39,003 bases of DNA, from positions 1 through 39,003 of the IMG/VR virus record IMGVR_UViG_3300023284_000338. One strand, 5' to 3'. Below the pieces are notes generated by a model. The model made no database searches. It had not been told where the DNA came from and was given only the letters and a program-made list of their open reading frames with translations. Positions 5,422-39,003 of the stretch are shown here, in pieces (position 1 is the first letter of the stretch; every line of letters starts with the position of its first letter). The translations under genes were made by a program, and so were the position numbers. This stretch comes from a virus.

Positions 5422-5450
5422 TAGCGTAGTTCGACTGCAAGGAGTCAGTC

Positions 5451-6548: not shown

Positions 6549-6574
6549 GCCATAATCTGACGTAGGAGAACGGC

Positions 6575-6844: not shown

Positions 6845-6864
6845 CTTTTTATTAGGAGCAAAAC

Positions 6865-7371: not shown

Positions 7372-7379
7372 GAGGTCCC

Positions 7380-7697: not shown

Positions 7698-7699
7698 CT

Positions 7700-10351: not shown

Positions 10352-11046
10352 TGGCAATCTCAGCAGCAACGGCAATTATTGGCGGCGCACTCATTGGCGG
10401 AGGCGCGTCGATTGCTGCTAGTCGCCAAGCGGCCGGAGGTGCTGATCGTGCCACAGAAGAAAGTAGACGACAGTTCGATATCCAGCGCGAAGATCAACTG
10501 CCATTTATTGAAACCGGTCAATCTGCACTAGCACGATTACGGTCGCTCTTTGGTCTTAGTCGTGGCGATGATCCGGGTGGTGCAGGAGATTTTTCGTTCT
10601 TCGAGGAATCGCCGGGATTTCAATTCCGTAAAGAACAAGGCGAAGAAGCAGTTAATCGTTCACTAGTGGCGCGTGGTAAAGCCTTATCTGGCCAAGGAGT
10701 TAAAGAATCGATTCGTTTTGCTTCCGGCCTGGCGGCGCAGGAGTTTGGGTCGTTCTTTGATCGTTTGGCAAGTCTTGCTGGTATTGGTCAAAAGGGTGCA
10801 GCGCAATCAGCCGCAGCAGGCGCGGTATCAGCCGGACAAGTTGGCAGAGCTGAAATCGCTGGTGGTAATGCCCGAGCGTCTGCATTCGCTGGATTAAATA
10901 ATGCGTTCCAGGGCGGCCTTTCGAATTTCTTATTATTGCAACAACTGAATCCGGCCGGTGCGCCAGTAACAAGTCCGATTAATACTCCAACGCAGAGAGG
11001 TGGTATAGGACCAATTTCTACTGGTGGCGGTTTTAGGATTGGATAG
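10351..11046 (+). CDS. DNA ejection (internal virion) protein, gp7-like
   Basis: 231 residues. It opens with a glycine-rich hydrophobic helix (ISAATAIIGGALIGGGASIAAS), then QAAGGADRATEESRRQFDIQREDQLPFIETG, a pattern common in internal virion proteins of short-tailed phages. The middle has AVNRSLVARGKALSGQGVKESIRFASGLAAQEF. The C-terminus is Gly/Pro-rich. First of three consecutive ejection-type genes, as P22 gp7-gp20-gp16. The hydrophobic start fits insertion into the host membrane. Confidence 0.75.
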   Translation: MAISAATAIIGGALIGGGASIAASRQAAGGADRATEESRRQFDIQREDQLPFIETGQSALARLRSLFGLSRGDDPGGAGDFSFFEESPGFQFRKEQGEEAVNRSLVARGKALSGQGVKESIRFASGLAAQEFGSFFDRLASLAGIGQKGAAQSAAAGAVSAGQVGRAEIAGGNARASAFAGLNNAFQGGLSNFLLLQQLNPAGAPVTSPINTPTQRGGIGPISTGGGFRIG

Positions 11047-11054
11047 GAATAATT

Positions 11055-12119
11055 ATGGCTTTTGAAACTTTCAGTCTCGCCGATGTACTCAACAACGCCG
11101 AGATAATAAACAATAAAAGGTCAAGATCGAATCTTGATTTATTGCGTGGTGCAGCGCTTGAAGAAAACATTGAATCATCAAAACTTAGCCGACGACTCAC
11201 TGAACGCGGCTTAAAACGCGAAGAACAAACATTTAATGCCCAACAGCAGTTGAGCAATACCAAATTTCTCATCGGCGCGACCGATCAAATTATTGCCGCT
11301 GGTGACAATGGACCCGCACTGGCGCAGCAATTTCTGCCTATGGCACAGGAGCGCGGCATCGTTGCGCAAGGTGTAGATTTCTCAGACGGCTTAGACCTTG
11401 AAGAAGTCAAATTGATCAATCAGCAAGCAAAACTTGCGCTTGGTGAATCGCCACGTAGCGAACGTCTTACTACGGTAGGTAAGGACGAAACTATCATCGA
11501 CGATCAGGGAAATGTAATTTTCAGCAATTTCGATCCTTCTGAGCGTATCGACAAAGAAACCGAGAAACGTCTAAAGACCGAAGCAGGATTGCGCAAAGAA
11601 TTCAATACACTGATCAAAGACTTTAATCTGGTTGCCGATTCGTTTGGTCGTGTTCGTGCTTCTGCAAAAGACCCGAGTGCAGCAGGTGACTTGGCGTTAA
11701 TCTTCAACTACATGAAAATGTTGGACCCAGGTTCTACGGTTCGTGAAGGCGAGTTCGCCACGGCACAAAATGCTGCCGGTGTGCCGGATCGAATCGTCGC
11801 TTTCTATAACAACATCGCTCGCGGCGAACGCATGGAAGAAGACCAACGGAATGATTTCCTTGACCGTTCGAATCGTTTGTTCGACGCACAGCGTACATCG
11901 TCGGGACAGACCGCGACTGCTTACGAGAAGATTGCCAGAGATGCGGGCGTTCGGCCGGAGAATGTTGTCACAGTATTTAGAGAGCGTGAAGACCAACCAG
12001 TAGTTAAAATAACGCCAAGCGCGAGAGCGATAGAACATTTGCAACAGAATCCGCACTTGCTGCCTCAGTTCATTGATAAATATGGCGAAGCGGCTGTGCC
12101 AAGCGATATTTCACGATAA
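11055..12119 (+). CDS. DNA ejection protein, gp20-like position
   Basis: 354 residues, mostly helical and charged. Long coiled-coil segments (LDLLRGAALEENIESSKLSRRLTERG; KRLKTEAGLRKEFNTLIKDF) dominate, with a stretch resembling phage internal proteins, MLDPGSTVREGEFATAQNA (also met in phage proteins of the T7/P22 type). It lies between two other ejection-like genes; its stop shares one base with the next start. Confidence 0.65.
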   Translation: MAFETFSLADVLNNAEIINNKRSRSNLDLLRGAALEENIESSKLSRRLTERGLKREEQTFNAQQQLSNTKFLIGATDQIIAAGDNGPALAQQFLPMAQERGIVAQGVDFSDGLDLEEVKLINQQAKLALGESPRSERLTTVGKDETIIDDQGNVIFSNFDPSERIDKETEKRLKTEAGLRKEFNTLIKDFNLVADSFGRVRASAKDPSAAGDLALIFNYMKMLDPGSTVREGEFATAQNAAGVPDRIVAFYNNIARGERMEEDQRNDFLDRSNRLFDAQRTSSGQTATAYEKIARDAGVRPENVVTVFREREDQPVVKITPSARAIEHLQQNPHLLPQFIDKYGEAAVPSDISR

Positions 12120-14323
12120 TGGCCGACGCAAATGCATTTGATCAGTTCGATGATGAGGCAGTAACGAATCTAAATCCGTTCGATCAATTCGACGAAGAAC
12201 AAGAGGAAATAAGCGGGCGCACCTTCGGCGGTAAAGTGCTGGTCAACGCGATACGAGCGATTGGTCAGGGAATAGCGGCTGAGATTTCGGCAGGTTTAGC
12301 GACAGGAACGGTCGCCGCTGCTCGTAGTGATATTGCCGAAGGCGTTGAAGTCGGCGAGAAAACTCGTGAGAAAATCCAATTCGAGCCAAGCACTCAAGCG
12401 GGAGAAGTAGCGGTACGCGGACTCGGCAAATTGGCTGAAGTTGTGACTGGCGCAGTACGCAAGCCGTTCGCCGGAATAGCCGGAATATTCAATCTACCAG
12501 GCGGATCAGAAAAAGCGGCAGAGGCCGTAGGGCGCGTCCAAGAAGAAGGGGTTGGCTCAGTACTGGCCGATGCGCTTTTTGAAGCCACAGGCAGCCCCGG
12601 TATCGCTACAGCGGCAAGAACGGCACCCGAAGCGATTGGGATACTAGCGGGTACAAAGGGCGTAGGTAGGGCAGTTAAAGCCGTTCCAGAGCCTGTTCCA
12701 CGTGGAACACTCGATATTCAGACGGGATCTGTTCCACGCCCGCTGGTTGGCCGAGAGCCGGAGATATCGGTCGGGCGACCGCGACTTGATGAGCCGGTCG
12801 ATGTGACGCCGCCAAGCGAAATCGAGCAAGCAGCGGCGATTGGCAAGGATGTTCGCCGTACCAAAACTACGACCGTGGCCGAGGAAGTCCGCCCTAATCC
12901 TGAAATTGTCGCAGCAGCGGACGAACTCGGTATTGAACTGCCGGCCAGTGCGACCAGCACCAACCGAGCATTTCAGGAGTTGGAACAAGCGGTCAAATCG
13001 CAACCCGGCTCAAAGATTGCCGTTAAAGAACAGGCCGCGATCGCAAAAGTTAATGAGCGGGCCGATGAAATGATCCGTGATTTTGGTGGCACCACGGATA
13101 AGAGCTTGTTGGACGACACGATTCGAAATGATTTTCTAAGCACTATCGATGACATGGAAGTGTCAGCGAAAGTCGCTTATAAGATAGTGGACGATACGAT
13201 TCCGAAAACGCATCGTATTGATCTGACGCAAACAGAAAATGGCGTTAAGGCGTATCTCGATAATGTCCTGGAAGAACTGGGCGGCGATATATCGTTATTG
13301 AGTGCTGCCGAACGCAAGTTGCTGACACTGACACGCACTAAGGGAGAAGGCGGCAAATTAGTTGATCGGCAACCGACTTATGCGGCATTGGATCGAGTGC
13401 GAAAAGACGTTGGCGAAGGATTCAATCGACGCAGCGGCCCGTTCAAAGATGATCGTGTTGCTAATCTCAAGCGGGTTTATGCCGCACTCAGCGAAGAACA
13501 ACAAGCGGTCGCTAATTTCTTTACCGTCGGTGGCGATTATGCGCGGGCGCGTGGTTTGGTCAACAAACGAAAAATCCTCGAAGGCGAAGCACAGGTTATT
13601 CTCGGTCGTGATTTGAACAGTTCGATTGTGCCGAAATTGCGCGCTGCGGCAACAACATTGACAAAAGGCGATACTTCAAAATTCAAAACCATCATGGACT
13701 CTTTACCGGAGGGCTTACGGCCGGAAGTTGCGGCCAGTATGTTATCGGATATTTTCGCATCAGGATCGCGGACTGGTAGTGGTGTCGGTAGTGGTTTCGT
13801 CAAAGCATTCGAATCACTGAATAGAAATTCGGTAGCGAAAAATTTGTTATTTAGTTATTTACCGAAAGGCGCAAAGCGCCGGTTTGATTTAATCGGAAAA
13901 GTAGCAACTGGATTATTCCGAGCTAAGGCACTGGAAAATAACTCCCGAACGGCACGAGCGATACTGCAAGCTCTTGACGATGGTGGCTTAATGGATAAAA
14001 TCTACAATGTCGGTAGAAAGGCGGCAGTGGCAGAAACCGCGACAACGGTAGCCGGTCTTCCACTGGTCGGTTCTAGCGTAGTCTTAGCGGTTAATATTGC
14101 CAAGAAATCGACGCCAGCAATTATCGCCGCCGATGAATTTTTAGCTTCGCCAGTATTTGCAAGAGCGATTCGTTTGTCTGGAACCGGTAAAACAGAACTG
14201 GCGAACGATATTGTGACGAAAAGCCCGAGATTTCAAAAGTGGCTGAAATTCGCTGATGAGAATTCTGCTGGTGAGATTGCGAGATTTGGTTTCATTGCGT
14301 GGCTAATTGGAGAAAACAAATGA
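12119..14323 (+). CDS. DNA ejection protein, gp16-like
   Basis: 734 residues, with a size and position like P22 gp16. It starts with DANAFDQFDDEAVTNLNPFDQFDEEQ, a repeated NPFDQFD motif common at the N-terminus of phage internal proteins. Then come hydrophobic Ala/Gly-rich segments (residues about 45-65 and 115-130) and an extended helical domain. The protein would be injected with the DNA. A parS-type palindrome lies inside its coding sequence (see 12694). Codons 192-208 have a duplicated VPRG/VPRP. Confidence 0.75.
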   Translation: MADANAFDQFDDEAVTNLNPFDQFDEEQEEISGRTFGGKVLVNAIRAIGQGIAAEISAGLATGTVAAARSDIAEGVEVGEKTREKIQFEPSTQAGEVAVRGLGKLAEVVTGAVRKPFAGIAGIFNLPGGSEKAAEAVGRVQEEGVGSVLADALFEATGSPGIATAARTAPEAIGILAGTKGVGRAVKAVPEPVPRGTLDIQTGSVPRPLVGREPEISVGRPRLDEPVDVTPPSEIEQAAAIGKDVRRTKTTTVAEEVRPNPEIVAAADELGIELPASATSTNRAFQELEQAVKSQPGSKIAVKEQAAIAKVNERADEMIRDFGGTTDKSLLDDTIRNDFLSTIDDMEVSAKVAYKIVDDTIPKTHRIDLTQTENGVKAYLDNVLEELGGDISLLSAAERKLLTLTRTKGEGGKLVDRQPTYAALDRVRKDVGEGFNRRSGPFKDDRVANLKRVYAALSEEQQAVANFFTVGGDYARARGLVNKRKILEGEAQVILGRDLNSSIVPKLRAAATTLTKGDTSKFKTIMDSLPEGLRPEVAASMLSDIFASGSRTGSGVGSGFVKAFESLNRNSVAKNLLFSYLPKGAKRRFDLIGKVATGLFRAKALENNSRTARAILQALDDGGLMDKIYNVGRKAAVAETATTVAGLPLVGSSVVLAVNIAKKSTPAIIAADEFLASPVFARAIRLSGTGKTELANDIVTKSPRFQKWLKFADENSAGEIARFGFIAWLIGENK
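12694..12709. promoter_or_regulatory. parS-type site (perfect 16-bp palindrome)
   Basis: The 16-mer TGTTCCACGTGGAACA is its own reverse complement. It equals the parS consensus form known from many bacterial chromosomes, to which ParB binds. A half copy, TGTTCCACG, follows at 12730-12738, exactly 36 nt on and in the same codon phase. The match is exact; that a host ParB binds here is inference. Confidence 0.6.
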
Positions 14324-15471
14324 AGTTCCGAATATTATTTGCTGCATTATTCCTGGCGCTTGCTCCTATTACCTATGCCGTTAATAATGGTCTTTTATTT
14401 AATACGCCAAAACAAACACCGTTCGGTTCCGGAGCGGTTATTGCTGGCGGCAAGATATTTTTCTATACCGCTGGCACCACGACAAAGCAGAATACTTATA
14501 CGACAGCTGCATTAGCGACGCCACATACAAACCCGGTAGTTGCCGATGCTGATGGTAAATTCGCTGCAATTTTTCTTGATCCGGGTCTTGGCGATTATAA
14601 GGTCGTTATCACGACAGCAGCAGATTCTGATCCACCGATTGCTGCGATTGATACTGTTGATAATTACCCTGTCGTGACAGCTCAAGTAGTAATAGAAGGT
14701 ACAGCTCCGTTTTTAGACTTGAAAGAAACCGATGAGCCTGTAGACGAGAAAGTATGGCGCATAGATTCGTTTGGTGGCGACATGCGCTTCACAACAAGAA
14801 CCGACGCAGGAGGTGGTGGCGAAGATTGGATGACTGCAATTCGTGGAACTGGCACGGCAGTCACAGAGGTACGGTTAAGCAATCCGATAAAAATCCTGGA
14901 ACAAGCTGCTGCTGGTACTGATACGGCTACTTATGGACAGCTATGGGTTAAGACCGTCACACCAAATGAACTTTGGTTTACTGATGATGCTGGCACGGAT
15001 ATACAGATTGGTGGTACGGCGTTCGCAGGAAAGAAAGTTTATAAGGTCAAAGCTACAACTTTATCAAAAAGCTCGACTACATCGCTAAGCGATGATCCTG
15101 ATTTATTTGGTTTTGTTCTCGAAACCGGCAAGCGGTATTCGGTTAAGTGTTATTTGAAATATACACAAAATGTAGGCGATTTCAAATTTACCTTTCAATT
15201 TACGAATACGCCAACCAGCTCCACAATGATTTATTGGGCAACCGATGAAAGCAAAGTTCAGGACAATGATTTCTTGAACTCTTTGACAACGGCAGTTGCC
15301 ATTACTACCATGACCGATACCGACGATGTTGGTTTACTTATAGAGGGAAGTTTCAGGGCTGATGTGACGACTGGAGGAACATTGGATTTTCAATGGGCGC
15401 AAAACACATCGAGCGCCAATAATACCACCCTGTTTATAAATTCATGGATGGAGGTAACACAATTAGATTGA
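14320..15471 (+). CDS. Tail-fibre-like protein with N-terminal signal peptide
   Basis: 383 residues from ATG at 14320; a longer ORF begins at 14299 but adds only MANWRKQ. From 14320 the first 22 residues are KFRILFAALFLALAPITYA, a clear Sec signal peptide with AxA-like cleavage (TYA|V). The mature part begins with a phage fibre head domain: PKQTPFGSGAVIAGGKIFFY, then TTTKQNTYTTAALATPHTNP and FLDPGLGDYKVVITTAADSD. The rest is beta-rich, with Gly/Thr loops. It overlaps the end of the gp16-like gene, the usual place of a tail fibre/spike gene. A signal peptide on a virion fibre is unusual. Confidence 0.75.
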   Translation: MKFRILFAALFLALAPITYAVNNGLLFNTPKQTPFGSGAVIAGGKIFFYTAGTTTKQNTYTTAALATPHTNPVVADADGKFAAIFLDPGLGDYKVVITTAADSDPPIAAIDTVDNYPVVTAQVVIEGTAPFLDLKETDEPVDEKVWRIDSFGGDMRFTTRTDAGGGGEDWMTAIRGTGTAVTEVRLSNPIKILEQAAAGTDTATYGQLWVKTVTPNELWFTDDAGTDIQIGGTAFAGKKVYKVKATTLSKSSTTSLSDDPDLFGFVLETGKRYSVKCYLKYTQNVGDFKFTFQFTNTPTSSTMIYWATDESKVQDNDFLNSLTTAVAITTMTDTDDVGLLIEGSFRADVTTGGTLDFQWAQNTSSANNTTLFINSWMEVTQLD

Positions 15472-15815
15472 CCTTCATTGTAATTTTTCTTTTTTGTTCG
15501 GCTTGCGCAACAGATTGGAGTCGCCGAGATTCTATTTTGCAAGCAGGTTTAGCAGTAACAATGATAGCAGATGCCATCACGACAGCGAGGATAAAGGATC
15601 ATCCAGAATTGCGTGAAACTGGTTTTTTGGCGGAATACATATTAGGAGAACAACCAGAACAGGCTGAAACATATCTCTATTTTGGAACCCTGATTGTCAG
15701 TTATTACATTATTTCAAGAACATTGCCTTCTAAGTGGCGACCTTATTTCCAAATCGGTTCAACCATTTATTTTGCAGATTTAGTAATAAATAATTGTCAA
15801 ATTGGACTGTGTTAA
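15444..15815 (+). CDS. Putative lipoprotein/membrane protein in lysis region
   Basis: 123 residues if ATG at 15444 is used. GGAGGT at 15450-15455 lies inside that version and suggests a later start (TTG at 15468). From there the protein begins TFIVIFLFCSACATDW, a lipoprotein-like signal with Cys at the end, though the lipobox is not ideal. It has hydrophobic segments (LQAGLAVTMIADAIT; YFGTLIVSYYIIS). It stands before the lysin gene. Function unknown; a membrane part of the lysis set is possible. Confidence 0.55.
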   Translation: MDGGNTIRLTFIVIFLFCSACATDWSRRDSILQAGLAVTMIADAITTARIKDHPELRETGFLAEYILGEQPEQAETYLYFGTLIVSYYIISRTLPSKWRPYFQIGSTIYFADLVINNCQIGLC

Positions 15816-15825
15816 TAACGGATAC

Positions 15826-16284
15826 ATGATGCAAATTACAGCTTTTGATATCGCGCAACGATTCATCGGTATTAAGGAAGTGCCTGGAATGGAATCCAAT
15901 CCGATGATTCTTGCTATGCTCAAGCTCGATGGTAAATGGCCCGAGGACGATTCTGTGCCGTGGTGTTCGGCGTTTTTGAACTATGTATGCTGGCTATTGC
16001 GGCTACCAAGATCGAAGAATTTGCGCGCACGATCATGGTTAAATGTCGGCTATGCGATTCATCCGGACGAAGCAATGCCCGGTTTTGATGTCGTCATTTT
16101 GCGACGAGGAAAAGAGCCACAACCGGGACCAGACATAATCGCGGCTCCGGGTCACGTTGGATTGTATGCTGGCTATCAAGCGGGCGGAATAGAACTTTTA
16201 GGCGGAAATCAGGGCGACACTGTAAAGGTATCGCGCTATGATTCAAAACGAATTCTCGGCATACGCCGTTTAGTGAGGGAGTAA
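15826..16284 (+). CDS. Endolysin, NlpC/P60-like peptidase (TIGR02594-type)
   Basis: About 152 residues from ATG at 15826; a TTG at 15802 would add eight. It begins ITAFDIAQRFIGIKEVPGMESNP and has PWCSAFLNYV (catalytic Cys), PGHVGLYAGY (catalytic His) and LLGGNQGDTVKVSRYD. This set is typical of the 150-residue CHAP/P60-like lysins named TIGR02594. It would cut peptidoglycan peptide links at the end of infection. No signal peptide is seen, so release probably needs the following holin-like protein. Confidence 0.85.
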   Translation: MMQITAFDIAQRFIGIKEVPGMESNPMILAMLKLDGKWPEDDSVPWCSAFLNYVCWLLRLPRSKNLRARSWLNVGYAIHPDEAMPGFDVVILRRGKEPQPGPDIIAAPGHVGLYAGYQAGGIELLGGNQGDTVKVSRYDSKRILGIRRLVRE

Positions 16285-16288
16285 GATT

Positions 16289-16474
16289 ATGCGGACTTCT
16301 ACAAATGTCGGTATCGCTGCAGGACTAGCAACCATTCTTATGTGGCTTCTGGGTTATTTCTCACCAGACCTCATGGCTGCAGCACCAGTAGGACTTGAAG
16401 CGGCGATTACAGGTGTGATCGCAGTCGTCGTTGCAAGATGGTCTAAAACGCCTGAAAATCCGGGGGTATTCTAG
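16289..16474 (+). CDS. Holin-like small membrane protein
   Basis: 61 residues with two hydrophobic helices (VGIAAGLATILMWLLGYF and VGLEAAITGVIAVVVARW) and a short charged tail. Directly after the lysin with 4-nt spacing. Two-helix layout is that of many class II holins. Confidence 0.65.
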   Translation: MRTSTNVGIAAGLATILMWLLGYFSPDLMAAAPVGLEAAITGVIAVVVARWSKTPENPGVF

Positions 16475-16476
16475 TC

Positions 16477-16926
16477 ATGAAACGATTATCTCAAATTGTT
16501 GTTCTATGGCCTGTCATTATTCTATGCCTGTTGAGCGTGTTCGCGGCCTGTAGTGGTACGCGAGAAGCCTATCGAGCTGCCGAGGGCGTTGAGGAAATAG
16601 CTAAGGTCGTAGGCGAGCATTACTACGCTCTTATTAAGGAAGCGAATCGTTTATCCAGTGACGGTGTACTCTACGGTAACTCTTTAGCGAAGGCGCAGGA
16701 TGTAGTCCGAGCGACGCAACCCGTTATTTCGGAACTTGCGGAAGCCGCTAAAGCGTATAAGGCATTGCGATCTGCTGAAACGGAAGCTGAACTCAAGACA
16801 GCGATTACGAATGCCGCGATTGCGGTATCAAGGCTAATCAATGCAGTTAAAGGTTCGAATCTGACCGGCGAGATTTGGCTTCAAGAAACATTCGGCGTCG
16901 AAACTATGGTATTTGCTTTCCAATAA
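16477..16926 (+). CDS. Putative lipoprotein of the lysis region
   Basis: 149 residues. N-terminal hydrophobic segment IVVLWPVIILCLLSVFAAC ends in a Cys that fits lipid attachment (FAAC|S). The rest is helical (EAYRAAEGVEEIAKVV; LRSAETEAELKTAI), likely coiled coil. Following a holin-like gene, an outer-membrane spanin role is possible but unproven; no C-terminal membrane segment for a unimolecular spanin is seen. Confidence 0.55.
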   Translation: MKRLSQIVVLWPVIILCLLSVFAACSGTREAYRAAEGVEEIAKVVGEHYYALIKEANRLSSDGVLYGNSLAKAQDVVRATQPVISELAEAAKAYKALRSAETEAELKTAITNAAIAVSRLINAVKGSNLTGEIWLQETFGVETMVFAFQ

Positions 16927-19315: not shown

Positions 19316-19765
19316 CTATCCTGAGCAGTCGCCATCTGGCTCAAGTCGGAACTTTTCTTCACAATGTGGACACTCAATTACCTTTCCAGTCAGCACCATG
19401 TCCGAATGCACGGCCTTGCCATCTTCCCATTCGAGAACCCACCGATCATCAAAGGCTTCGCCAGTAGCTCGCATCGTGCCTGTCAAAGCGAAATCCGGTA
19501 TCTTCTCGCGAACCTTGTCAATCAAGTAGTTTACGATGCACGACATGTCGCCCGTCTTTTCCGCCCCGTCCCATTGCAGGCCGCTGAAGTCATCAAGCAA
19601 CTCAAGGTCAACATAATACCAATAGCCGCCATAACGCTTATATGCGTCATCATCTCCAAGATCCCGTACATCAGCGCCAAGGAATTTCTTGACGTGACTC
19701 AATTCAGAGGCCGTTAGTTCTCGCCGGAACTTCAAGTCGCCTTCGTAACTTGTTGAATATCCCAT
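19316..19765 (-). CDS. Conserved-type phage protein with C-terminal zinc knuckle
   Basis: 149 residues. It starts MGYSTSYEGDLKFRRELTAS, a form shared by a phage protein family of unknown function. Middle: GGYWYYVDLELLDDFSGLQW. C-terminus: IECPHCEEKFRLEPDGDC, a zinc-ribbon-like half. AAGGAG ribosome site 5 nt before ATG. Confidence 0.65.
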   Translation of the reverse strand: MGYSTSYEGDLKFRRELTASELSHVKKFLGADVRDLGDDDAYKRYGGYWYYVDLELLDDFSGLQWDGAEKTGDMSCIVNYLIDKVREKIPDFALTGTMRATGEAFDDRWVLEWEDGKAVHSDMVLTGKVIECPHCEEKFRLEPDGDCSG

Positions 19766-19767
19766 TT

Positions 19768-19953
19768 CTACTCCTTTGGAGACTGTCTATCGAGAACACG
19801 CGCTAGCGCCGCATGCAGCAGTCCAACTTCTTTCCATGCGTGTGTAGCTGGGTGATGTGCGCTATCAACTAATGCTTGCGCTGCCTGAGCTACATCAGCT
19901 AACCGATCTCGCTCTGCTCGTAGTAATTCAAGCATTTCAACTTGCTCGTTCAT
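19768..19953 (-). CDS. Small helical protein ending in RQSPKE
   Basis: 61 residues, helix MLELLRAERDRLADVAQAAQ followed by HHPATHAWKEVGLLHAALARVL, then DRQSPKE coded by the junction repeat. Start ATG overlaps the upstream stop by 4 nt. Confidence 0.6.
   Translation of the reverse strand: MNEQVEMLELLRAERDRLADVAQAAQALVDSAHHPATHAWKEVGLLHAALARVLDRQSPKE
19777..19802 (-). repeat. Junction repeat, copy D
   Basis: GCGTGTTCTCGATA then GACAGTCTCCAA; codes LDRQSP at the end of the gene ending at 19768. Confidence 0.65.
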
Positions 19954-20174
19954 TTATTCTCCTGCACGCGGATCGTTCCAACATGAACGCCGCCATCCCA
20001 ATCGCCAATGCTGATTAATTGACCACAGAGATTGCAATGAGTGTGACGGTCTTTCGTTCCACACTCGCAATCAGCCTCACAACGCATGGCGTCCTTCTCT
20101 CGATACTCTGAGTGGTACGGATGCCCCTTCTGGCATCTTGTCTTGTGCCAAGGAAATGCTGCTACTATCTCCAT
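19950..20174 (-). CDS. Small Cys/His-rich zinc-binding protein
   Basis: 74 residues. Many possible metal ligands: RCQKGHPYHSEY, RCEADCECGTKDRHTHCNLCG. Looks like a phage zinc-ribbon protein. First gene after an internal leftward promoter (20204-20231). Confidence 0.6.
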   Translation of the reverse strand: MEIVAAFPWHKTRCQKGHPYHSEYREKDAMRCEADCECGTKDRHTHCNLCGQLISIGDWDGGVHVGTIRVQENK

Positions 20175-28291: not shown

Positions 28292-28687
28292 ATGAATAGA
28301 TATCTAATCATATTGTTTCTATTGACTGGTTGTCAGCAAGATCCTTATGACGCAATAACTTCAGAGGCATTTGACGAGGATGCTATCGACAGAATAGAAC
28401 TTACTTTAGAAATAACAGTAGAAATTTATGTCAAAGATCAGCCAGTCTATACTGGATTTGTCGAACATTGGGCCTTTAATAATATAGTTTATCTTCAAGA
28501 CAGCGCTTCAGATATTGACGATTTTTATACTGGAATGAGCGTGAAGTTCGATAATATAGATGAAATAAACGATGGATGCGTGCACGATTACAGAGCCGCA
28601 ATTCGAGAACTTACTTTCGGGCCATGTTTTGAAGATATCCACAAATCACACTTCGAATCTGAGATCGTCGATCCGAATGCCAATTAA
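28292..28687 (+). CDS. Phage-encoded lipoprotein
   Basis: 131 residues. NRYLIILFLLTGCQQDPYDA is a clear lipoprotein signal with lipobox LTGC. Ribosome site AAAGGAGA. Mature part is beta-rich and acidic (IELTLEITVEIYVKDQPVYTGF) with two Cys (DGCVHDY; FGPCFED). After the lipobox, D at +4 and no D at +2 suggest outer-membrane sorting. A role in superinfection exclusion is possible but not shown. Confidence 0.6.
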   Translation: MNRYLIILFLLTGCQQDPYDAITSEAFDEDAIDRIELTLEITVEIYVKDQPVYTGFVEHWAFNNIVYLQDSASDIDDFYTGMSVKFDNIDEINDGCVHDYRAAIRELTFGPCFEDIHKSHFESEIVDPNAN

Positions 28688-30200: not shown

Positions 30201-32375
30201 ATGAAACGACTGCTTGCCGTCATTGCACTTATCTTTGTCTGTTCTCTGAATGTACAAGCACAACTCACGCCTGAAGAACCGCTGCTTATTACCTCCATCA
30301 CTGGGGGTGAGCTTGGTCGCTTTACGGATAGTCATGTCAAGGCATTCGAGCCGGTTGGCCAGAATAAAATCTTTGCTGACCGTATAAATACTTGGTACGA
30401 AAATTCACTTCCTGATGAGTTCAACCATTGTCAATCAATTCGCACTAATTTTAGTGATCGCGGCTCGACAGCGACGGGCTTAGTTTCCTTCACGCTTTCG
30501 CGTGAGGCACAAGTTACGGTTTGGATGTCCGATTCGCTAGTTGGTGGTGTGCCGGCGTGGGTAGATACCAAGGACTACAAAGATAATGGTTATTCGAAGG
30601 CTATATTCACAGACTTTGGCGGGTCCGCTACTGGCTATTCAGCTATCAAGGCTGCCGGCGCGCATGTACTAGACGGAGCAACCACAGACGGCAACGAAGA
30701 CTTTCCGACCTATGCCATTTCTATTTGTTCGTCGTCATATCAAGCATTCCCTATCGTAGCTCCTGCGCCGACTGATAAAGGCGAATATCGCTTCCTTGTG
30801 TCCACGGGCGCGGACATTCCCGAATCAACAACGGTGCAGCGTGGTGCGGTAGAACGTGTTCCTGGCGCCGGCAATGATACTGCGGTCAGTGTGGATATAT
30901 CCGATGCCTCGGGAGCTGGTGACTGTGTTTCAGGCACCGACTACACGGCGTTCTCAGATAAAACCGCTAACTGGGCCGATAATGTTGACGGAACCGTTCA
31001 AGGTATTAGCGGCATTGTCGCCCTGGACGTGAGTGCCGATTGTACGCTTCGAATGAATCTCATCAATCCTAGCAGCGGTTTTACGGCTGCCAAAACGATG
31101 CAGACTTACACGGTGACAATTACCAATTCTGAATCGGTGGCAAATATCTTCGTTGATAAGAGCTGTAGTGGTTGTGATGCCACAGGTGACGGCTCAAGCG
31201 GTAGCCCGTATCAAAATGCTGAAAAGGGGATGCAACAGGCGAGTCCGGGCGACGTGGTTTGTTTGAGAAACGGCACTTATGACGACCACGATAACAGCAA
31301 TAGTATTATCAAAGTGACGTCCGGCATGAGTGGCACTGCTGGCAATCCCATCACGATACAACCTTGCGCTGGACACAGCCCCCTTATTGCGGATGCGGGT
31401 GCTTTCTGGGGCATTATCGCAGAACGCTCCAGCTATATTACTGTCAAGAACTTAGAATTTGGGGTCGTTAAAAACTCTTGCATCTACATCGCTGGTGGTA
31501 GTTCAACGAAAACGGGTTCTCACAACTGGATCATCGAAGACGCGCTCTTGCATGATTGCGGCGCGGTATCTGCTGCATGTAAGGAGTCAAATGGACGCTC
31601 TGGAATTTTCACTAACAAGTGGAGCAGAGACGTCACTATAGATTCCTCCACGATCCACAGTATTGGCCGGATACGGAATGCAGCCTGTGATGCCAACTCT
31701 GAAGCCGACAACGATATGTACCGGCACGACCACGCGCTCTATGCCAAGGGCAAAAACATCAAGCTGCAGAACAGCGTGATTTACAACATATACGCTGGTT
31801 ACGGGGTCAAGGTTGACGGCTACGCGACCCAGCTCGGCCAGGTGCCCTCGGACGAATTCAGCCATTTCGTTCTGAATAACACCTTCGGGCCAAATACAAA
31901 TCCGAATCCTTACGGTCAGGGTAAACGCTCAGGCTCACCACAGCGGCCAGTAAACAGCACATCAGGCTCATATCGCCCACGATGGTTCTTTGGCAACAAT
32001 ATCTGTCTGGATTTAGATGGCTCTCCTGGCTGCATTATAATTACAGATAAAACATGGAGCAATTTCCCGACCAACAACGTCTGCCGAGATAATGTCGTGC
32101 AAACGCCGGGTCAGTCTGGATTTTTGTCAACGTGCGGGACACATGATGCGGGTGTTGATCCAAATGTAGTTCAATCTGGTAATCTTACGGGACAGTCTGC
32201 GGCACAGCTTGATATGGTGAATCCAGGTGCTTTTGACTATGATCTAAATGCACCCAGTACCGCAGCAGGGCAAGGCGATTGCACTACGATAGATAACTTG
32301 GTTTTTCCAACAGACGACAAGGATGGTGTGACTCGCGGCTCGCCCTGCGATGCAGGAGCTTTCGAGGCACCATAA
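30201..32375 (+). CDS. Secreted right-handed beta-helix protein
   Basis: 724 residues from ATG at 30201; the ORF extends 60 codons further but a Sec signal peptide starts here (RLLAVIALIFVCSLNVQAQ, cleavage AQA). The core, from NIFVDKSCSGCDATGDGSSG (residue about 330), has repeats of strand-turn (CLRNGTYDDH, ITIQPCAGHSPLI, ITVKNLEFGVVKNS) that are a right-handed parallel beta helix of pectate-lyase type. Tail DKDGVTRGSPCDAGAFE is like those of bacterial surface beta-helix proteins. Probably binds or cleaves polysaccharide. An acquisition from bacteria is likely. Confidence 0.75.
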   Translation: MKRLLAVIALIFVCSLNVQAQLTPEEPLLITSITGGELGRFTDSHVKAFEPVGQNKIFADRINTWYENSLPDEFNHCQSIRTNFSDRGSTATGLVSFTLSREAQVTVWMSDSLVGGVPAWVDTKDYKDNGYSKAIFTDFGGSATGYSAIKAAGAHVLDGATTDGNEDFPTYAISICSSSYQAFPIVAPAPTDKGEYRFLVSTGADIPESTTVQRGAVERVPGAGNDTAVSVDISDASGAGDCVSGTDYTAFSDKTANWADNVDGTVQGISGIVALDVSADCTLRMNLINPSSGFTAAKTMQTYTVTITNSESVANIFVDKSCSGCDATGDGSSGSPYQNAEKGMQQASPGDVVCLRNGTYDDHDNSNSIIKVTSGMSGTAGNPITIQPCAGHSPLIADAGAFWGIIAERSSYITVKNLEFGVVKNSCIYIAGGSSTKTGSHNWIIEDALLHDCGAVSAACKESNGRSGIFTNKWSRDVTIDSSTIHSIGRIRNAACDANSEADNDMYRHDHALYAKGKNIKLQNSVIYNIYAGYGVKVDGYATQLGQVPSDEFSHFVLNNTFGPNTNPNPYGQGKRSGSPQRPVNSTSGSYRPRWFFGNNICLDLDGSPGCIIITDKTWSNFPTNNVCRDNVVQTPGQSGFLSTCGTHDAGVDPNVVQSGNLTGQSAAQLDMVNPGAFDYDLNAPSTAAGQGDCTTIDNLVFPTDDKDGVTRGSPCDAGAFEAP

Positions 32376-32391
32376 TTGGAGAGGATAAGCA

Positions 32392-32976
32392 ATGAAATTT
32401 AGAACCTGGCTAGCAGTAGTATTACTGGCGTTTTCGCCGCTCGCATTTTCTGCAAGCGGAGACGCACTTCTTGTATGGACGGCTTTATCAAATGAGCCGC
32501 CTGATGCGGATTATGCGACCCTTGACGCGATCTTAACGGCTAGCGCAGACGAACCCGATGATGTAATCCTTGTCCTCGAGTTTGATCCGGGCGCAACGAA
32601 TGAGTTTGCCGCTTTCTCTGCTGTCATGCCAGAGCATTACGGTGGCGGCGGTGTCACGCTGACGATTATGTGGGCTAGTGATGGCGCGACAACTGGAAAC
32701 GTCAAATGGGATGCCGCATTCAAGAGCTTCACAGTCGATGTCGATAATCTCAATACCAAAGTCTACGCAGCGATTCAGACTGCTACTGAGGCAACGGCGA
32801 GCGCGTCCGGCGAACTTCAGTACACCGACGTAAATTTCACTGATGGCGGACAGATGGACTCGGTAGCGAAGAATGAATATTTCCGTCTTACGCTGGAAAG
32901 AGACTCCGCTGATGCTGGCGATACGATGAATTCAAACGACGCTCAGGTCGTCGCCGTCTACCTTACCGAACAATAA
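32392..32976 (+). CDS. Secreted beta-rich fibre-like protein
   Basis: 194 residues. Signal peptide FRTWLAVVLLAFSPLAFSA. Mature part: LVWTALSNEPPDADYATLD, FSAVMPEHYGGGGVTLTIMWAS, GNVKWDAAFKSFT, NEYFRLTLERDSADAGDTMN, resembling a jelly-roll-like structural domain (PEHYGGGGVTLTIMW-S-A-T-GNVKWD) found on phage virion proteins. GAGAGGA ribosome site. Confidence 0.65.
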   Translation: MKFRTWLAVVLLAFSPLAFSASGDALLVWTALSNEPPDADYATLDAILTASADEPDDVILVLEFDPGATNEFAAFSAVMPEHYGGGGVTLTIMWASDGATTGNVKWDAAFKSFTVDVDNLNTKVYAAIQTATEATASASGELQYTDVNFTDGGQMDSVAKNEYFRLTLERDSADAGDTMNSNDAQVVAVYLTEQ

Positions 32977-32980
32977 GACC

Positions 32981-33742
32981 ATGAAAAGACTATCAATATT
33001 GCTGTTATTTTGGATTGCATTTGCAGTGCAGGCTGGCGTTCAGTTTGATAATGTCGATGATGAATACACGGCAGCATCGACCACTTTCAATCTTGATACC
33101 GGCACAATTAGTTGGTGGGCAAATCACGACCATGCTTCAAGTTCAGCAACTCCCCTTCATGCTTATTTTGATACTGTCACTTCTCGCTACACCATGTATC
33201 GGTCAAGCTCTACTGCCAATAGGCATCAGTTCTTTGTCGATGGGCGTAACCGTGATTGGACGCTTGTTTATGCGGCTGATGTTTGGGTCCATATGCTTGT
33301 GGTCTATGACAAAGGCAGCGACCTAAAAGATATTTATATCGACGGCTCGTTAGCCACGCCTGTTGGTGGCTCATCTGGCACATGGGGTTCTAATTCCCAC
33401 GGCACTACACATATCGCTGCAGCAGAGAGTGGCAGTTCCGCCTTTTTCTTTGCTGGATCAATGGCCGAGTTTGCGACCTACGATGTCGTTCTTACTGCTG
33501 CCGATATAACGGCGCTGTCAAAGAAGGCTTCGCCGCTATTGGTCCGCCCGGACAACCTAATCAGATACTGGCCAATGTATGGTCCAGACAGGATAGAGCC
33601 TAAATTCGGCCCCGCAGCGCTGACGAAAGTCGATGCTCCCACCCAGGACGACCACCCCGGCGTATTTATGCCATCGACGCAGATATTTCGGTTTCCGGCG
33701 GCCGGGGTTGCGGGAGCTGGACCTTTAAGACGCAGACGATGA
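32981..33742 (+). CDS. Secreted LamG/concanavalin-like lectin protein
   Basis: 253 residues. Signal peptide RLSILLLFWIAFAVQAG. Then VQFDNVDDEYTAASTTFNLDTG, ISWWANHDHASSS, YTMYRSSST, ADVWVHMLVVYDKGSDLKDIYIDG and FAGSMAEFATYDVVLTAADI, the LamG/concanavalin A-like fold. Such domains bind sugars. Stop overlaps the next start (ATGA). Confidence 0.75.
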   Translation: MKRLSILLLFWIAFAVQAGVQFDNVDDEYTAASTTFNLDTGTISWWANHDHASSSATPLHAYFDTVTSRYTMYRSSSTANRHQFFVDGRNRDWTLVYAADVWVHMLVVYDKGSDLKDIYIDGSLATPVGGSSGTWGSNSHGTTHIAAAESGSSAFFFAGSMAEFATYDVVLTAADITALSKKASPLLVRPDNLIRYWPMYGPDRIEPKFGPAALTKVDAPTQDDHPGVFMPSTQIFRFPAAGVAGAGPLRRRR

Positions 33743-33912
33743 AAAAACTCGCTTTTTTGCTGCTTCTGGTATTACCGGCTCTCGCCATTGCCGTAGTCAG
33801 TTGGAACCAACATCCTGTCGATACTTCTGGCGATGCTCTGCTGATCGATGATAATGGCGATAAATTGCTGATCGACGATTCAAGCTCCGACATACTGCTG
33901 ATTCAGGAATGA
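33739..33912 (+). CDS. Small secreted protein with LLIDD repeats
   Basis: 57 residues. Signal peptide KKLAFLLLLVLPALAIA, then a 40-residue mature part with three near-repeats: GDALLIDD, GDKLLIDD, SDILLIQE. Acidic. No family recognised. Stop overlaps the next ATG (ATGATG). Confidence 0.65.
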   Translation: MKKLAFLLLLVLPALAIAVVSWNQHPVDTSGDALLIDDNGDKLLIDDSSSDILLIQE

Positions 33913-35636
33913 TGAAAAAACTAGCCTTTCTAATCTGCTTACTGACGGCCTCTGTTTCTGTTTTTGCCGTTGACTCAACGCGGCCGAATTTGAATGCGGT
34001 CGTTACTCCTGCCGGTACTGATTTATATGGTGTTCGGCAAAGCGGCGACACCAGAGACAAAAAACTTACTCGGGCCATCCATGAGAATTATGGCTGGAAA
34101 GTACGATCTGCCGCCGAAATTGCTGCCTCGATCACGCCATCAGATTACAGCTATCCGCCAGGCATGGTGCAACGATATGGCGCAGTCGGCGACGGTACTG
34201 CTGACGATTATCAAGCGATTGTCGATTCCATAGCACAAAATGCCCAGGGCGGCGCTGCCGTTTATTTACCCGCCGGCACGTATCAGGTTGAACTCACGAT
34301 TCTCTTGCAGAGTGTGTCTAACATACAGATATACGGAGACGGCGCAGGCGTCACCACGATCAGGGCCAAAGTCTTCCCGGCGAGCTTTCCGCTGCCGATA
34401 ACCGGATCGCAAGGCGTTATCACCATTGGCAATCAATCGGAGGTTGCGGGGCAGGCACCGTCCTATGTGACGATTCACAATTTAACCATCGACGGACAGG
34501 GAGCCGCGCAACCTAATGAGGACGCTTTTGGCGAGTTCATGGGTCTGGCGATCAGGGCCGGTTCATATATTTGGCTCTATGACATGGAGATTAAAGACGG
34601 CCCCAAAGATACGATTTATGTGGCCGATACAACGAATTTTGGCAGCGCGACGCTGATACATCATATCTGGTTCGACAACATCCATTTTGGTGCTGCGAGC
34701 CTTCGCCGAACTCTGTCGCTGGTAAGCGGCACAGACATGGTGTTCAGCAATATCATCGTCAACGGTGGTAACGGTAGTTCTGTCGGGCTTGAGTCTAATA
34801 CTGGCAACACGGCGATTGAAAGGGTGTTGTTTAGCAATATTCTGGTTGACGGTGGCAACCGTTGCATTGCAATGACCGCTGACGACACTCAGGCAAAAAG
34901 TGTCGATATTGCATTTCAGAATATGGTTTGTAGCGGCAGCGTCAATACTGATTCTGCGATTCAGTTATCAGTTGGGGATAGAATCAGCTTTGATAACCTC
35001 ACTATTCTGGCTGCTGCCGGACGCGGCATCGATACGGGGACTGGTTCAGAACTTAAAAACCTAACTCTGAGCAATGTCTTGATAACTGGCCCGGCCTCGA
35101 CTGGAGTCAGGTTGCGCTCTACGAAGCACGCCACACTGGACAATGTGCGGGTGTTTGGGGCGCTCAATTCCGGGGTCGGTATTCAGATCACTGATTCGGG
35201 TGCCAATTTCTCATCAGATATCAAGCTGACAAATTGTGTGACGAATGACGGCACTAGCTATGGTGTTTGGGTGCAGGATGCAGCGACCAGGGTGCAAATT
35301 ATCGGCCACGAAAGCGTCAATAATGACGCAGCGGGTCTTTTCCTCAATCCAGATATCACCGACGCTGAGTATCAGGTAATCGGTGGATATTTTGGAGACA
35401 ATGCTACCGATGGGATTTCAGTGGCCCCCCCGGCTTCGTTTGTAGGCAGCATTTTGCTTGATGGTGTCAGGGCGACGGATACGGCAGCGTCAGATTCTCA
35501 AGAGGATGGTATTGATCTGTCTGACACTGATGTTGACTATGTGCGGCTGGTCAATAGCGACTTACGTGGTAATGTGACAAACTCAGTTAACGGGTCTGTG
35601 GGTGGAAACGGTGTTTCCGCAAACAATATATTGTGA
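33909..35636 (+). CDS. Tailspike-like beta-helix protein with signal peptide
   Basis: 575 residues; ATGATG allows a start at 33909 or 33912. Signal peptide KKLAFLICLLTASVSVFA. Then PNLNAVVTPAGTDLYGVRQSGDTR, a phage-virion-like N-terminal adaptor. RYGAVGDGTADDYQAIVDSI and AAVYLPAGTYQV are the tailspike/pectate-lyase-3 signature, followed by a long beta helix (VTIHNLTIDGQGAAQP, IWFDNIHFGAAS, VLFSNILVDGGNRC). Likely polysaccharide depolymerase or adhesin. The signal peptide is the odd feature. Confidence 0.8.
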   Translation: MMKKLAFLICLLTASVSVFAVDSTRPNLNAVVTPAGTDLYGVRQSGDTRDKKLTRAIHENYGWKVRSAAEIAASITPSDYSYPPGMVQRYGAVGDGTADDYQAIVDSIAQNAQGGAAVYLPAGTYQVELTILLQSVSNIQIYGDGAGVTTIRAKVFPASFPLPITGSQGVITIGNQSEVAGQAPSYVTIHNLTIDGQGAAQPNEDAFGEFMGLAIRAGSYIWLYDMEIKDGPKDTIYVADTTNFGSATLIHHIWFDNIHFGAASLRRTLSLVSGTDMVFSNIIVNGGNGSSVGLESNTGNTAIERVLFSNILVDGGNRCIAMTADDTQAKSVDIAFQNMVCSGSVNTDSAIQLSVGDRISFDNLTILAAAGRGIDTGTGSELKNLTLSNVLITGPASTGVRLRSTKHATLDNVRVFGALNSGVGIQITDSGANFSSDIKLTNCVTNDGTSYGVWVQDAATRVQIIGHESVNNDAAGLFLNPDITDAEYQVIGGYFGDNATDGISVAPPASFVGSILLDGVRATDTAASDSQEDGIDLSDTDVDYVRLVNSDLRGNVTNSVNGSVGGNGVSANNIL

Positions 35637-35649
35637 GGCGGGTAGATCA

Positions 35650-36870
35650 ATGAAAAAGCTATTTTTATTACTGTTGTTGCTTCCACTTGTGGCACAAGCG
35701 GAATATCACCCGCCAATTAAGTATGGCGAAGCAAAGACGATTTATTTCAAACTGTACAACACGGATGGAACACTTGATGTAAATGAGGCAGATGGTGGTG
35801 CAGAAATAACAGCCGACTGCGATGGCACCCCGACTAATCCGATTACAAATGATTTTGCTGATGAAGGTGCTTTCTACAGTATCGCCTTAACAGCAGGAGA
35901 AACCACCTGCGGCATAATCACTCTTACAATAGCCGCAACTGATACAAACGTCGTTATCATACCGACCTTTGGCCATCCATCAGCAGGTATCGTTTCATAT
36001 CATCAGATTAAGGCAGCCGGTTTAGTCGATGCCGCTGGTACGACAACAACGCTAGAACTCGCAACGGGTGACTCAGAAGCCGACGATTTTTATAATGACT
36101 ATTGGGGAGCTATAGTTGCTGGCACTGGTCTTGGGCAAGAGTTTGTGATTACCGATTATGCCAATACTGGAAACGTCGCAACGATCACGCTATTGGTTAC
36201 GAATACTGATGCCACTTCCTATTATCACATCTACTCTGAGAAAAAAGCCGTAGTAAACATTACATCCGGCGTGATCGAAGCGAAAGTCATGTCAACGGCA
36301 ACAGATGCCATTACAGCAACCAGCCTTCAGGCGGATTCCATCGGCGCGTCCGAACTAGCGACAGATGCGATCGGTTCCGCAGAAATTGGTACAGCGGCTA
36401 TAGATGCTGACGCAATCGCGGCAAGTGCGATTGGAGCATCGGAGTTAGCAACCGATGCCATAGGTGCCGCCGAGATAGCTACGGACGCCATTGGTGCTGC
36501 CGAGCTGGCGGCCGACGCCGCGACCGAGATTATCGACCGGATGCCGATGGTCATGGAAACCACGACCATTGCGACACTGGCAAGTCAGGTTAGCTTTACC
36601 TTGACGGCGGGTTCGGCCGATGATGATGCCTATAATGGCTGCGGTGCGATCATTACGGATGTATCGACCGCCGTACAGAAAGCCTATGGCGGTATTCAGG
36701 ACTATGCTGGCGGCACTAAAACTGTGACGCTGGACGCTGATCCGGCCATATTCACGATGGCTGCAACTGATCTTGTTGATCTTATCTGTCTGCCATCGAC
36801 GGTTGAATTTATGAATAAATCCGAAGTTCTCGGCGTTGGTTCATCGGGTGACAAATGGCGCGGCAACTAA
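35650..36870 (+). CDS. Secreted fibre protein with alanine-rich DAIGAAE repeats
   Basis: 406 residues from ATG at 35650. Signal peptide KKLFLLLLLLPLVAQAE (AQA|E). N-terminal beta domain (KTIYFKLYNTDGTLDV), then DDFYNDYWGAIVAGTGLGQEF. From residue about 217 (MSTATDAIT) a repeat block: SLQADSIGASELATDAIGSAEIG, ADAIAASAIGASELATDAIGA and so on, as in phage triple-stranded coils. Ends with a short beta domain. Typical tail-fibre architecture with a signal peptide. Confidence 0.7.
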   Translation: MKKLFLLLLLLPLVAQAEYHPPIKYGEAKTIYFKLYNTDGTLDVNEADGGAEITADCDGTPTNPITNDFADEGAFYSIALTAGETTCGIITLTIAATDTNVVIIPTFGHPSAGIVSYHQIKAAGLVDAAGTTTTLELATGDSEADDFYNDYWGAIVAGTGLGQEFVITDYANTGNVATITLLVTNTDATSYYHIYSEKKAVVNITSGVIEAKVMSTATDAITATSLQADSIGASELATDAIGSAEIGTAAIDADAIAASAIGASELATDAIGAAEIATDAIGAAELAADAATEIIDRMPMVMETTTIATLASQVSFTLTAGSADDDAYNGCGAIITDVSTAVQKAYGGIQDYAGGTKTVTLDADPAIFTMAATDLVDLICLPSTVEFMNKSEVLGVGSSGDKWRGN

Positions 36871-37061
36871 GAAAATCACTACTAGTCGTAATGCTGTTGC
36901 TGTTACCGGCAGTATTATCTGCACAGGCATACGATACTGCTGCGTTTGATGACAGTAACGCATTCGATATGACTTCATTTGACTTTGGTGCGATATCGGT
37001 GAGTGGTAAATCTGGAAACAGCTCTGGTTTGTCAATCGAAGGAGTTAGCATAGGATTATGA
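36855..37061 (+). CDS. Small secreted protein
   Basis: 68 residues. Signal peptide LRKSLLVVMLLLLPAVLSAQ, mature part AYDTAAFDDSNAFDMTSFDFG followed by AISVSGKSGNSSGLSIEGV. Acidic and Phe-rich repeat FD/SFDFG. Stop overlaps next start. Confidence 0.6.
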   Translation: MARQLRKSLLVVMLLLLPAVLSAQAYDTAAFDDSNAFDMTSFDFGAISVSGKSGNSSGLSIEGVSIGL

Positions 37062-37414
37062 AAAAATTATTTCTATTGATCGTCCTGTTTTTCGCGCTGC
37101 CAGCATTAGGGGCGACTTGCAAAATCAGTGAGTACGCTTTTCTGGTTCAGGATGGTGCAGGGCGCACTGTTCCTGTTGCAGCGGCCCCGGCTATTACGAC
37201 TCAAAATATAACATATACGACATCAACACAGAGTGCAGCCGTAAATTCACAAACGCGTTTTATTCGTGTTATCTGCGATGCTAAGGCACATTTTGTTATC
37301 GGCGCAAATCCAACCGCAGCGACAACTGATCCTTACTTAGCAGCAGACACGCGAGAATACTTCGGTATTCCAGTAAATGTCAGCATGAAAATAGCTTTTA
37401 AGGATACTAGTTAA
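37058..37414 (+). CDS. Secreted phage virion-like small protein
   Basis: 118 residues. Signal peptide KKLFLLIVLFFALPALGA, then TCKISEYAFLVQDGAGRTV, FIRVICDAKAHFVIGANPTA and YLAADTREYFGI. Without the signal it matches a common phage virion domain (strand, CDA-xx-FxIG-xPTA). Overlap with the previous gene by 4 nt. Confidence 0.65.
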   Translation: MKKLFLLIVLFFALPALGATCKISEYAFLVQDGAGRTVPVAAAPAITTQNITYTTSTQSAAVNSQTRFIRVICDAKAHFVIGANPTAATTDPYLAADTREYFGIPVNVSMKIAFKDTS

Positions 37415-37416
37415 TA

Positions 37417-37716
37417 ATGTCCGATTACGGCCTTTTGCCTGATGCTGGTCCGCTGAATTTTGAGAAGACACCGGACGAGGCAATTACCGTTTTATTCCAT
37501 TGGGCATCACGGCTTAACGGCGAAACCATATCGACCGCAACTTACGAATTACCGGACGGTTTGACAAACGAGGCGGATAGCGAATCCGGTACGATCGCTC
37601 AGGTTCGTGTTGCTGGTGGAACTGATGGTTTGACCTATCGCGTTATTTCCAAAGTCACGACGAATAATTCGCAGGATTTCGAATGGGTTAAGCGGGTAAA
37701 GGTCGTGGACCCATAA
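37417..37716 (+). CDS. Fibre/tail adaptor-like virion protein
   Basis: 99 residues, no signal peptide. ITVLFHWASRLNGETISTATYELPDG, then SGTIAQVRVAGGTDGLTYRVISKVTTNNSQDFEW, the immunoglobulin-like build of phage fibre-tail adaptor proteins. It ends the fibre cassette. Confidence 0.65.
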   Translation: MSDYGLLPDAGPLNFEKTPDEAITVLFHWASRLNGETISTATYELPDGLTNEADSESGTIAQVRVAGGTDGLTYRVISKVTTNNSQDFEWVKRVKVVDP

Positions 37717-38200: not shown

Positions 38201-39003
38201 GCAATCTAAGAATAAAATATCTGAATTTGGACGAGCTTGAGCCGTTCGAAGATAACTCCCGAACTCATTCGGAGGATCAGATCGCTCAAGTCGCAGCATC
38301 GATCACTGAATTTGGCTTCACCAATCCCATACTCATCGACGAGAATAAGGGCGTAATCGCTGGCCATGCTCGTCTGCTGGCCGCACAGCAGTTGGAAATG
38401 GACAAGGCCCCTACGATTACCTTGCCTGGACTATCGTCGGCACAGAAGCGGGCCTATGTAATCGCTGACAATAAATTGGCCCTGAATGCTAGTTGGAATG
38501 AGGAGTTGCTCGGAATTGAATTGCAGAATCTACTCAACGCTGATTTTGATGTTGGCCTGACCGGATTTTCCGATACCGAGATCAATCTATTGTTACCTAG
38601 CGGATCAGGGCTTACCGATCCTGACGCAATCCCTGAAAATGTGGAAGCAATTACTCATTACGGCGATCTATACATTCTCGGAGATCACAGGTTGTTATGT
38701 GGCGATGCCACAAACTCCGAGGATGTTAGTCACTTACTCGGCAAAGTTAGACCACATCTTATGGTGACTGATCCGCCTTACGGGGTTCAATATGATCCGA
38801 ACATGCGGCGTAGAATTGATGGCGGATCAACTCGGCGTAAATATATGTCGGCAAATAAAGATACTAATGTTAGTTGGGAGGAAGCATGGAGTTATTTTTA
38901 TGGTGATGTAGCTTATATCTGGCATTCAGATAAGCAAATTATTGGAGTCGGTCAGTCATTATTAGCCGCTGGATTTCAACTTAGACAGCAAATTATCTGG
39001 GCA
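38197..39003 (+). CDS. ParB-domain DNA methyltransferase, N-terminal part
   Basis: GTG start at 38197 overlapping the previous stop (GTGA). Residues 1-110 are a ParB/sulfiredoxin-like domain: LNLDELEPFEDNSRTHSEDQ, ENKGVIAGHARLLAAQQLEM, SSAQKRAYVIADNKLALNASW. Then YGDLYILGDHRLLCGDATNS and HLMVTDPPYGVQYDP with the catalytic DPPY. The gene continues at 145-525. ParB-like plus methyltransferase is a common phage and plasmid fusion; the ParB domain here probably helps target or process DNA and is not a partition protein. Confidence 0.88.
   Translation, partial: MSNLRIKYLNLDELEPFEDNSRTHSEDQIAQVAASITEFGFTNPILIDENKGVIAGHARLLAAQQLEMDKAPTITLPGLSSAQKRAYVIADNKLALNASWNEELLGIELQNLLNADFDVGLTGFSDTEINLLLPSGSGLTDPDAIPENVEAITHYGDLYILGDHRLLCGDATNSEDVSHLLGKVRPHLMVTDPPYGVQYDPNMRRRIDGGSTRRKYMSANKDTNVSWEEAWSYFYGDVAYIWHSDKQIIGVGQSLLAAGFQLRQQIIWA
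38860..39003. repeat. Right copy of 144-bp terminal direct repeat
   Basis: Identical to bases 1-144, at an offset of 38,859. Removing one copy joins codon for codon the N-terminal part of the methyltransferase (from 38197) to its C-terminal part (to 525), giving 1188 nt in one frame. Confidence 0.95.

Follow-up and report, generated by a model that had tools for sequence, protein, structure and literature searches.

Spikes and fibres of tailed phages are taken to fold and attach to the virion in the cytoplasm. The locus described here raises the question of why a tailed phage would place signals for Sec export on such proteins. The window, the whole 39,003-base stretch that we analysed, is an entire IMG/VR virus record. 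A first-pass annotation of it had noted eight signalled, fibre- or adhesin-like genes in succession (30201–37414) and a ninth at 14320, and the genes do lie at these positions, all on the + strand. That annotation offered two purposes for the signals, namely secretion of a surface-acting set of proteins or a role in virion assembly.

A signalled fibre set in a complete podophage genome

In order to decide what the nine genes represent, it matters whether the phage could carry others. Positions 1–144 of the window are identical to positions 38860–39003, forming a 144-bp direct terminal repeat, and a ParB-like/DNA methyltransferase gene spans the join of the two record ends. Because of this repeat and of the gene running over the join, the genome is complete, circularly permuted and ∼38.9 kb in size. 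The nine signalled genes are therefore the whole recognisable fibre set of the phage. The phage belongs with the P22-like podophages, since genes for TerL, portal, the head-closure protein Hc3, DNA ejection and an Erf annealing protein are all present, and its major capsid protein is 35–43% identical to those of the Pseudanabaena phages Pam1, Pan3 and Pam5 and of prophage CBW1004C-Prop1. An acetyltransferase-like gene (9914–10351) lies within the tail/ejection block in a position resembling that of Pam1_11. Additionally, the window encodes two putative lipoproteins (16477–16926 and 28292–28687) with FAAC and LTGC lipobox-like ends, of which 16477 lies in the lysis region and is a candidate for an outer-membrane spanin. 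From these lipoprotein-type signals and from the relatives of the phage, we assume that the host is probably Gram-negative.

Each gene is referred to by its start position. The isolated gene, 14320 (14320–15471, 383 aa), encodes a signal (residues 1–20, MKFRILFAALFLALAPITYA), a Pam1-type tailspike head-binding domain and a fibre C-terminal region. The cassette opens with 30201 (30201–32375, 724 aa), in which a signal (1–20) precedes a weak right-handed beta-helix protein; the beta-helix assignment made in the first-pass annotation has weak backing here, from a PF13229 match of 0.005, under Pfam's cut-off. It is followed by 32392 (32392–32976), a signal (1–20) with a 174-aa protein that has no assigned fold, and by 32981 (32981–33742, 253 aa), where a signal (1–18) precedes a LamG/concanavalin-like lectin domain (PF13385, 4.4e-12), as had been proposed. 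The beta-helix proposed for 33909 (33909–35636, 575 aa) was likewise borne out, as its signal (1–20) leads into a pectate-lyase-like/beta-helix tailspike (PF12708, 3.2e-17). Further downstream, 35650 (35650–36870, 406 aa) is a fibre with Ala-rich repeats behind a signal (1–17), and 37058 (37058–37414, 118 aa) carries a signal (1–18) and a small phage beta domain. The two remaining genes are very short: 33739 (33739–33912, 57 aa), whose start overlaps the upstream stop, has a signal (1–18) and a 39-aa mature peptide of repeated LLIDD-type units, and 36855 (36855–37061, 68 aa) has a signal (1–25) and a 43-aa mature peptide. Both are too small to be called adhesins, and neither had relatives by pattern search of related loci or recognised homologues, while the link of the cassette to fibre-type proteins stands. 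The cassette ends at a gene without a signal, the Gp77 fibre-tail adaptor (37417–37716, +; PF23148, 5.8e-14; 52.8 bits against a gathering cut-off of 27). AlphaFold models were too weak to build on, with a mean pLDDT of 56 for 14320 and 68 for 37058, and searching by fold brought no informative match. By megablast against 50,697 phages the cassette region had no similar sequence, and single-protein scans for close cassette relatives returned none for 37058 and one distant match only for gp77.

The signals were scored with a home-made signal-peptide scorer, built from a weight matrix of 20 E. coli Sec signals together with rules for the n-, h- and c-regions. By this scorer, all nine proteins have the Sec-type signals claimed for them, with a basic n-region, a hydrophobic core and an A-x-A-type site. 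Thus, the positive n-region, the h-region and the small residues at −3 and −1 that mark signal peptidase I substrates are found in 9/9. The cores are Leu-rich, with a mean hydropathy of 3.0–3.7 as compared to 1.7–3.1 for the E. coli signals (median 3.48 vs 2.66; P 2e-5). Matrix scores for the nine were 6–12, below most of the scorer's own training set, and given these low scores the predicted cleavage sites carry moderate certainty. Recent duplication of a signal among these genes is conceivable from short DNA matches between the signals of 33739 and 33909 (89%) and between those of 14320 and 32392 (63%), but the flanks are unrelated.

Within the window, signals were present on 9/9 fibre-like genes and on 0/15 head, portal, connector, ejection and adaptor genes. 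By a strong-signal rule, 8/61 window genes qualified versus 15/3,590 genes of 306 related viral loci, and 292 of the 306 loci had no strong-signal gene; these 306-locus rates are approximate, since many loci are fragmentary and genes were called crudely. In an earlier count over 196 loci, 11/1978 genes were signalled (binomial P 2e-9). Could the signals be an artefact, either because N-termini are hydrophobic by chance or because start codons were misassigned? We regard this as scarcely credible. All nine pass a scorer that accepts 0.7% of whole-protein shuffles and 1.8% of first-40-residue shuffles, and the strong-signal counts given above also argue against chance. At 33739, 33909 and 37058 the start overlaps the stop codon of the gene before, a GGAG lies 7 nt upstream of the 14320 start, and there is no ATG, GTG or TTG near the mature N-terminus of 14320, 30201, 32392, 35650 or 37058. 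A signal-less form made from an alternative start codon therefore appears to be precluded in most of the nine. An artefact would be easiest to accept for 30201, whose start is the least certain of the nine because its ribosome-binding site is poor and it falls within a longer open frame (30021).

Signals ahead of virion-type domains

The clearest virion part among the nine is 14320. Its mature part, predicted to begin VNNGLLF, opens with the head-binding domain of the tailspike of Pseudanabaena phage Pam1 (PDB 7EEQ; phmmer E 1.7e-17; 51% identity), a domain that is also present in the Pam1-like tail spike chains 9VYG and 9VYH. The phage therefore shares with Pam1 and the P22-type podophages both this tailspike domain and a P22-like gene set. 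However, the spikes of Pam1, Pan3 and ctkAd229 start at the head-binding domain itself, whereas the primary product of 14320 begins with a 20-aa Sec signal and the anchor domain comes only after it. Nearly all of ∼100 relatives of 14320 begin at the head-binding domain. Among 80 viral loci, a signal preceded the domain in only two, L158 (by the scorer) and L105 (by eye), and in 0/8 loci from bacterial genomes.

Similar to 14320, the signal of 37058 sits exactly in front of a domain that other phages use without one. Predicted cleavage gives the mature N-terminus ATCKISEYAF, and homology to full-length relatives without a signal, L183 (MATAYIREYRF) and L160 (MANAYIREYA), begins exactly at the predicted cleavage point, with ATCKISEY pairing with residue 2 of the signal-less form (M-ATAYIREY). 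Cleavage of 37058 is thus predicted to expose the same N-terminus that the signal-less relatives have after loss of Met. The signal was absent from this domain in 34/34 viral loci and in L160, and in other phages the small domain adjoins structural genes. In the homologue comparison, with and without signal, that the first-pass annotation had suggested, relatives start without a signal mostly (14320) or in all cases (37058).

For the rest of the set the comparisons are partial. The 35650 fibre has one domain in common with a signal-less fibre in L251 and an N-terminal part without a clear alignment, and 33909 shares the module RTAAEIAAxVTPxDYxYxPG..RYGA with phage tailspikes. Clear virion-type homologues were found only for 14320 (the anchor domain), 37058 and 35650; our searches returned no close virion relative of 30201, 32392, 32981, 33739 or 36855. 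Judged by the comparisons for 14320, 37058, 35650 and 33909, the signals appear to be add-ons to virion parts. Composition was also compared. Mature signalled proteins contain 1.08% Cys versus 0.47% in signal-less virion proteins, an excess mostly due to 30201, which has 18 Cys in the 704 residues of its mature protein. This content is high for a phage protein and would be compatible with disulfides formed outside the cytoplasm.

Proposed export and docking at lysis

Since this complete genome offers no recognisable receptor-binding candidate without a signal, at least some of the signalled proteins must reach the virion. The domains of these proteins likewise suggest that the exported forms would be virion members. 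The explanation that we consider best, and to which we give about an even chance of being correct, is that the proteins are exported by Sec to the periplasm, cleaved, and docked at lysis on virions assembled in the cytoplasm. Tailspikes, fibres and small fibre-associated proteins would enter the Sec translocon, probably co-translationally because their cores are unusually hydrophobic. Signal peptidase I would then cut the signal and leave mature N-termini equivalent to the ones that phage spikes made in the cytoplasm ordinarily have. The parts without signals, namely the heads, the short tail and the gp77 adaptor, would be assembled in the cytoplasm as the exported fibres fold in the periplasm. 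Once holin and endolysin open the envelope, virions would reach the folded periplasmic fibres and dock them. Tailspikes of the P22 type are added last in assembly, to particles that are otherwise finished. A point against this order of events is that docking after lysis would dilute the fibres.

Of the two purposes originally put forward, the role in assembly is thus favoured, and a secreted surface-acting set is less likely given the complete genome, the 14320 anchor and the 37058 cleavage point. In such a set the nine would be effectors acting on the envelope or surroundings of the infected cell, by degrading glycans, masking receptors, keeping out rival phages or affecting biofilm, and would not be virion parts. 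We consider this unlikely, if deserving of real weight, since the LamG lectin, pectate-lyase-like and beta-helix folds, the many Cys of 30201 and the Sec-type signals on all nine are what exported effectors might show, and phages do export proteins, Lom for one (PMC12309495). However, it would leave a complete phage without a recognisable receptor-binding protein, and 14320, the one protein for which this was established, retains an anchoring domain, the virion head-binding domain, that an effector should lack. The placement of the signal-less 37058 domain beside structural genes in other phages also speaks against effectors, and Sec alone would deliver them to the periplasm, not the medium, if the host is Gram-negative.

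Alternatively, uncleaved hydrophobic N-termini could tether the fibres at the inner membrane, where virions would pick them up. Core hydropathy above that of typical E. coli signals would favour such membrane insertion, but A-x-A-type cleavage sites are present in 9/9 and an uncleaved hydrophobic tail before the anchor domain would alter the virion-binding end, making a tether improbable. A division of the set, with 14320 and the proteins next to gp77 belonging to the virion and 30201, 32392, 32981 and 33909 secreted as enzymes or lectins, would fit the restriction of clear virion-type homologues to 14320, 37058 and 35650. Yet all eight cassette genes form one contiguous block ending in the gp77 adaptor, and 33909 carries the module common to phage tailspikes; we hold this division, too, to be improbable.

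Signalled proteins in this and other phages

Virion proteins made as Sec precursors are familiar from filamentous phages: the Inovirus coat proteins pIII and pVIII carry Sec signals, and inoviruses assemble in the membrane. In contrast, the phage described here belongs to the tailed dsDNA phages, its capsid is preformed, and it encodes a tailed-phage TerL, portal and major capsid protein, not a set of Inovirus coat and assembly genes in place of such a head. Lom is likewise a phage-encoded Sec substrate, but it is an outer-membrane barrel encoded by a single gene, whereas here the signals are on virion-type fibres and on the whole fibre set. A paper on rumen phages gives 0–2 signal peptides per genome (PMC5723332), and a survey of hypermutation describes cellular targets that carry membrane domains or signals at the N-terminus (PMC8144416). 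Among open-access papers, to which the search was largely confined, none turned up that describes Sec signals on the fibre sets, tail fibres or tailspikes of tailed phages. Podophage spikes and fibres are known, and a Sec-signalled fibre set is apparently undescribed; that it represents a categorically new assembly route is an unproven upper reading.

The surroundings of the cassette are conventional. As in the Gp77 fibre-tail adaptor family (PF23148, phage GP4), the adaptor gene directly follows the fibre cassette and is upstream of the terminase. However, fibre genes adjoining gp77 in the relatives L231, L230 and L234 lack the Sec signals seen here. Fibre-like genes upstream of the terminase in four TerL relatives (L238, L244, L246 and L297) also lack convincing signals, so the signal route appears to be dispensable in the lineage. 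In one relative, L243 (TerL 63% identical, gp77 match 1e-37), the gene immediately preceding gp77 is signalled and weakly matches a PHROG tail-fibre family. The alignment of gp77 (n=5 sequences) was too divergent for scanning.

Signalled genes of this kind were also found further afield. The unrelated phage contig L344 has three close together after the major capsid gene (9138–16864), two with signals identified by the scorer and the third by eye; the last, with a GTG start, encodes a fibre-like protein of 1,643 aa. L342 and Bradyrhizobium phage ppBdUSDA122-1 (L007) encode signalled proteins that clearly match PHROG tail fibres. In ppBdUSDA122-1, a possible bench model, two adjoining signalled genes are of tail-fibre type (5285–7882 and 7918–9366), and WAX24263 is a signalled tail fibre of this phage. 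An alphaproteobacterial assembly (L224) encodes a signalled spike-like protein. Taking L344, L243, L342, L007, L158 and L224 together, signalled structural or fibre genes appear to recur independently. The broader proposal is a split assembly line, with heads and tails made in the cytoplasm, receptor-binding parts Sec-exported, processed and folded in the periplasm, the two joined only during lysis, and the signals added independently in several phage lineages; we rate its chances as somewhat short of even. With an entire recognisable fibre set encoded as Sec precursors, and with scattered parallels, a different assembly compartment becomes testable. It also raises the questions of disulfide-bonded spikes and of what infected cells do with their own receptors ahead of lysis. 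When metagenomes are read, signal-bearing fibre-like proteins may be misfiled as secreted host proteins.

Nine named phages in all were sampled without finding fibre signals. Fibres of the CPTRP..STNACASTAF type, considered as a candidate for a known signalled class, were rejected as such after the matches in Mae-JY30, R5C, RL2RES, PHB04 and Touem01 showed no convincing signal, and signals were not found on the fibres of Leptospira LE3, phiLM21, P106B or ICBM3. Two small signalled proteins lie beside the portal gene in L266, and near them 19548–20102 encodes a protein whose start resembles a twin-arginine signal (RRSFLKG) and leads into a stretch resembling a tail collar (WVPCAGQ). Lastly, fn3-type proteins that are signalled or membrane-anchored occur near the fibre region in L251 (4458–5222) and L297 (4037–4936), possibly forming a separate exported family.
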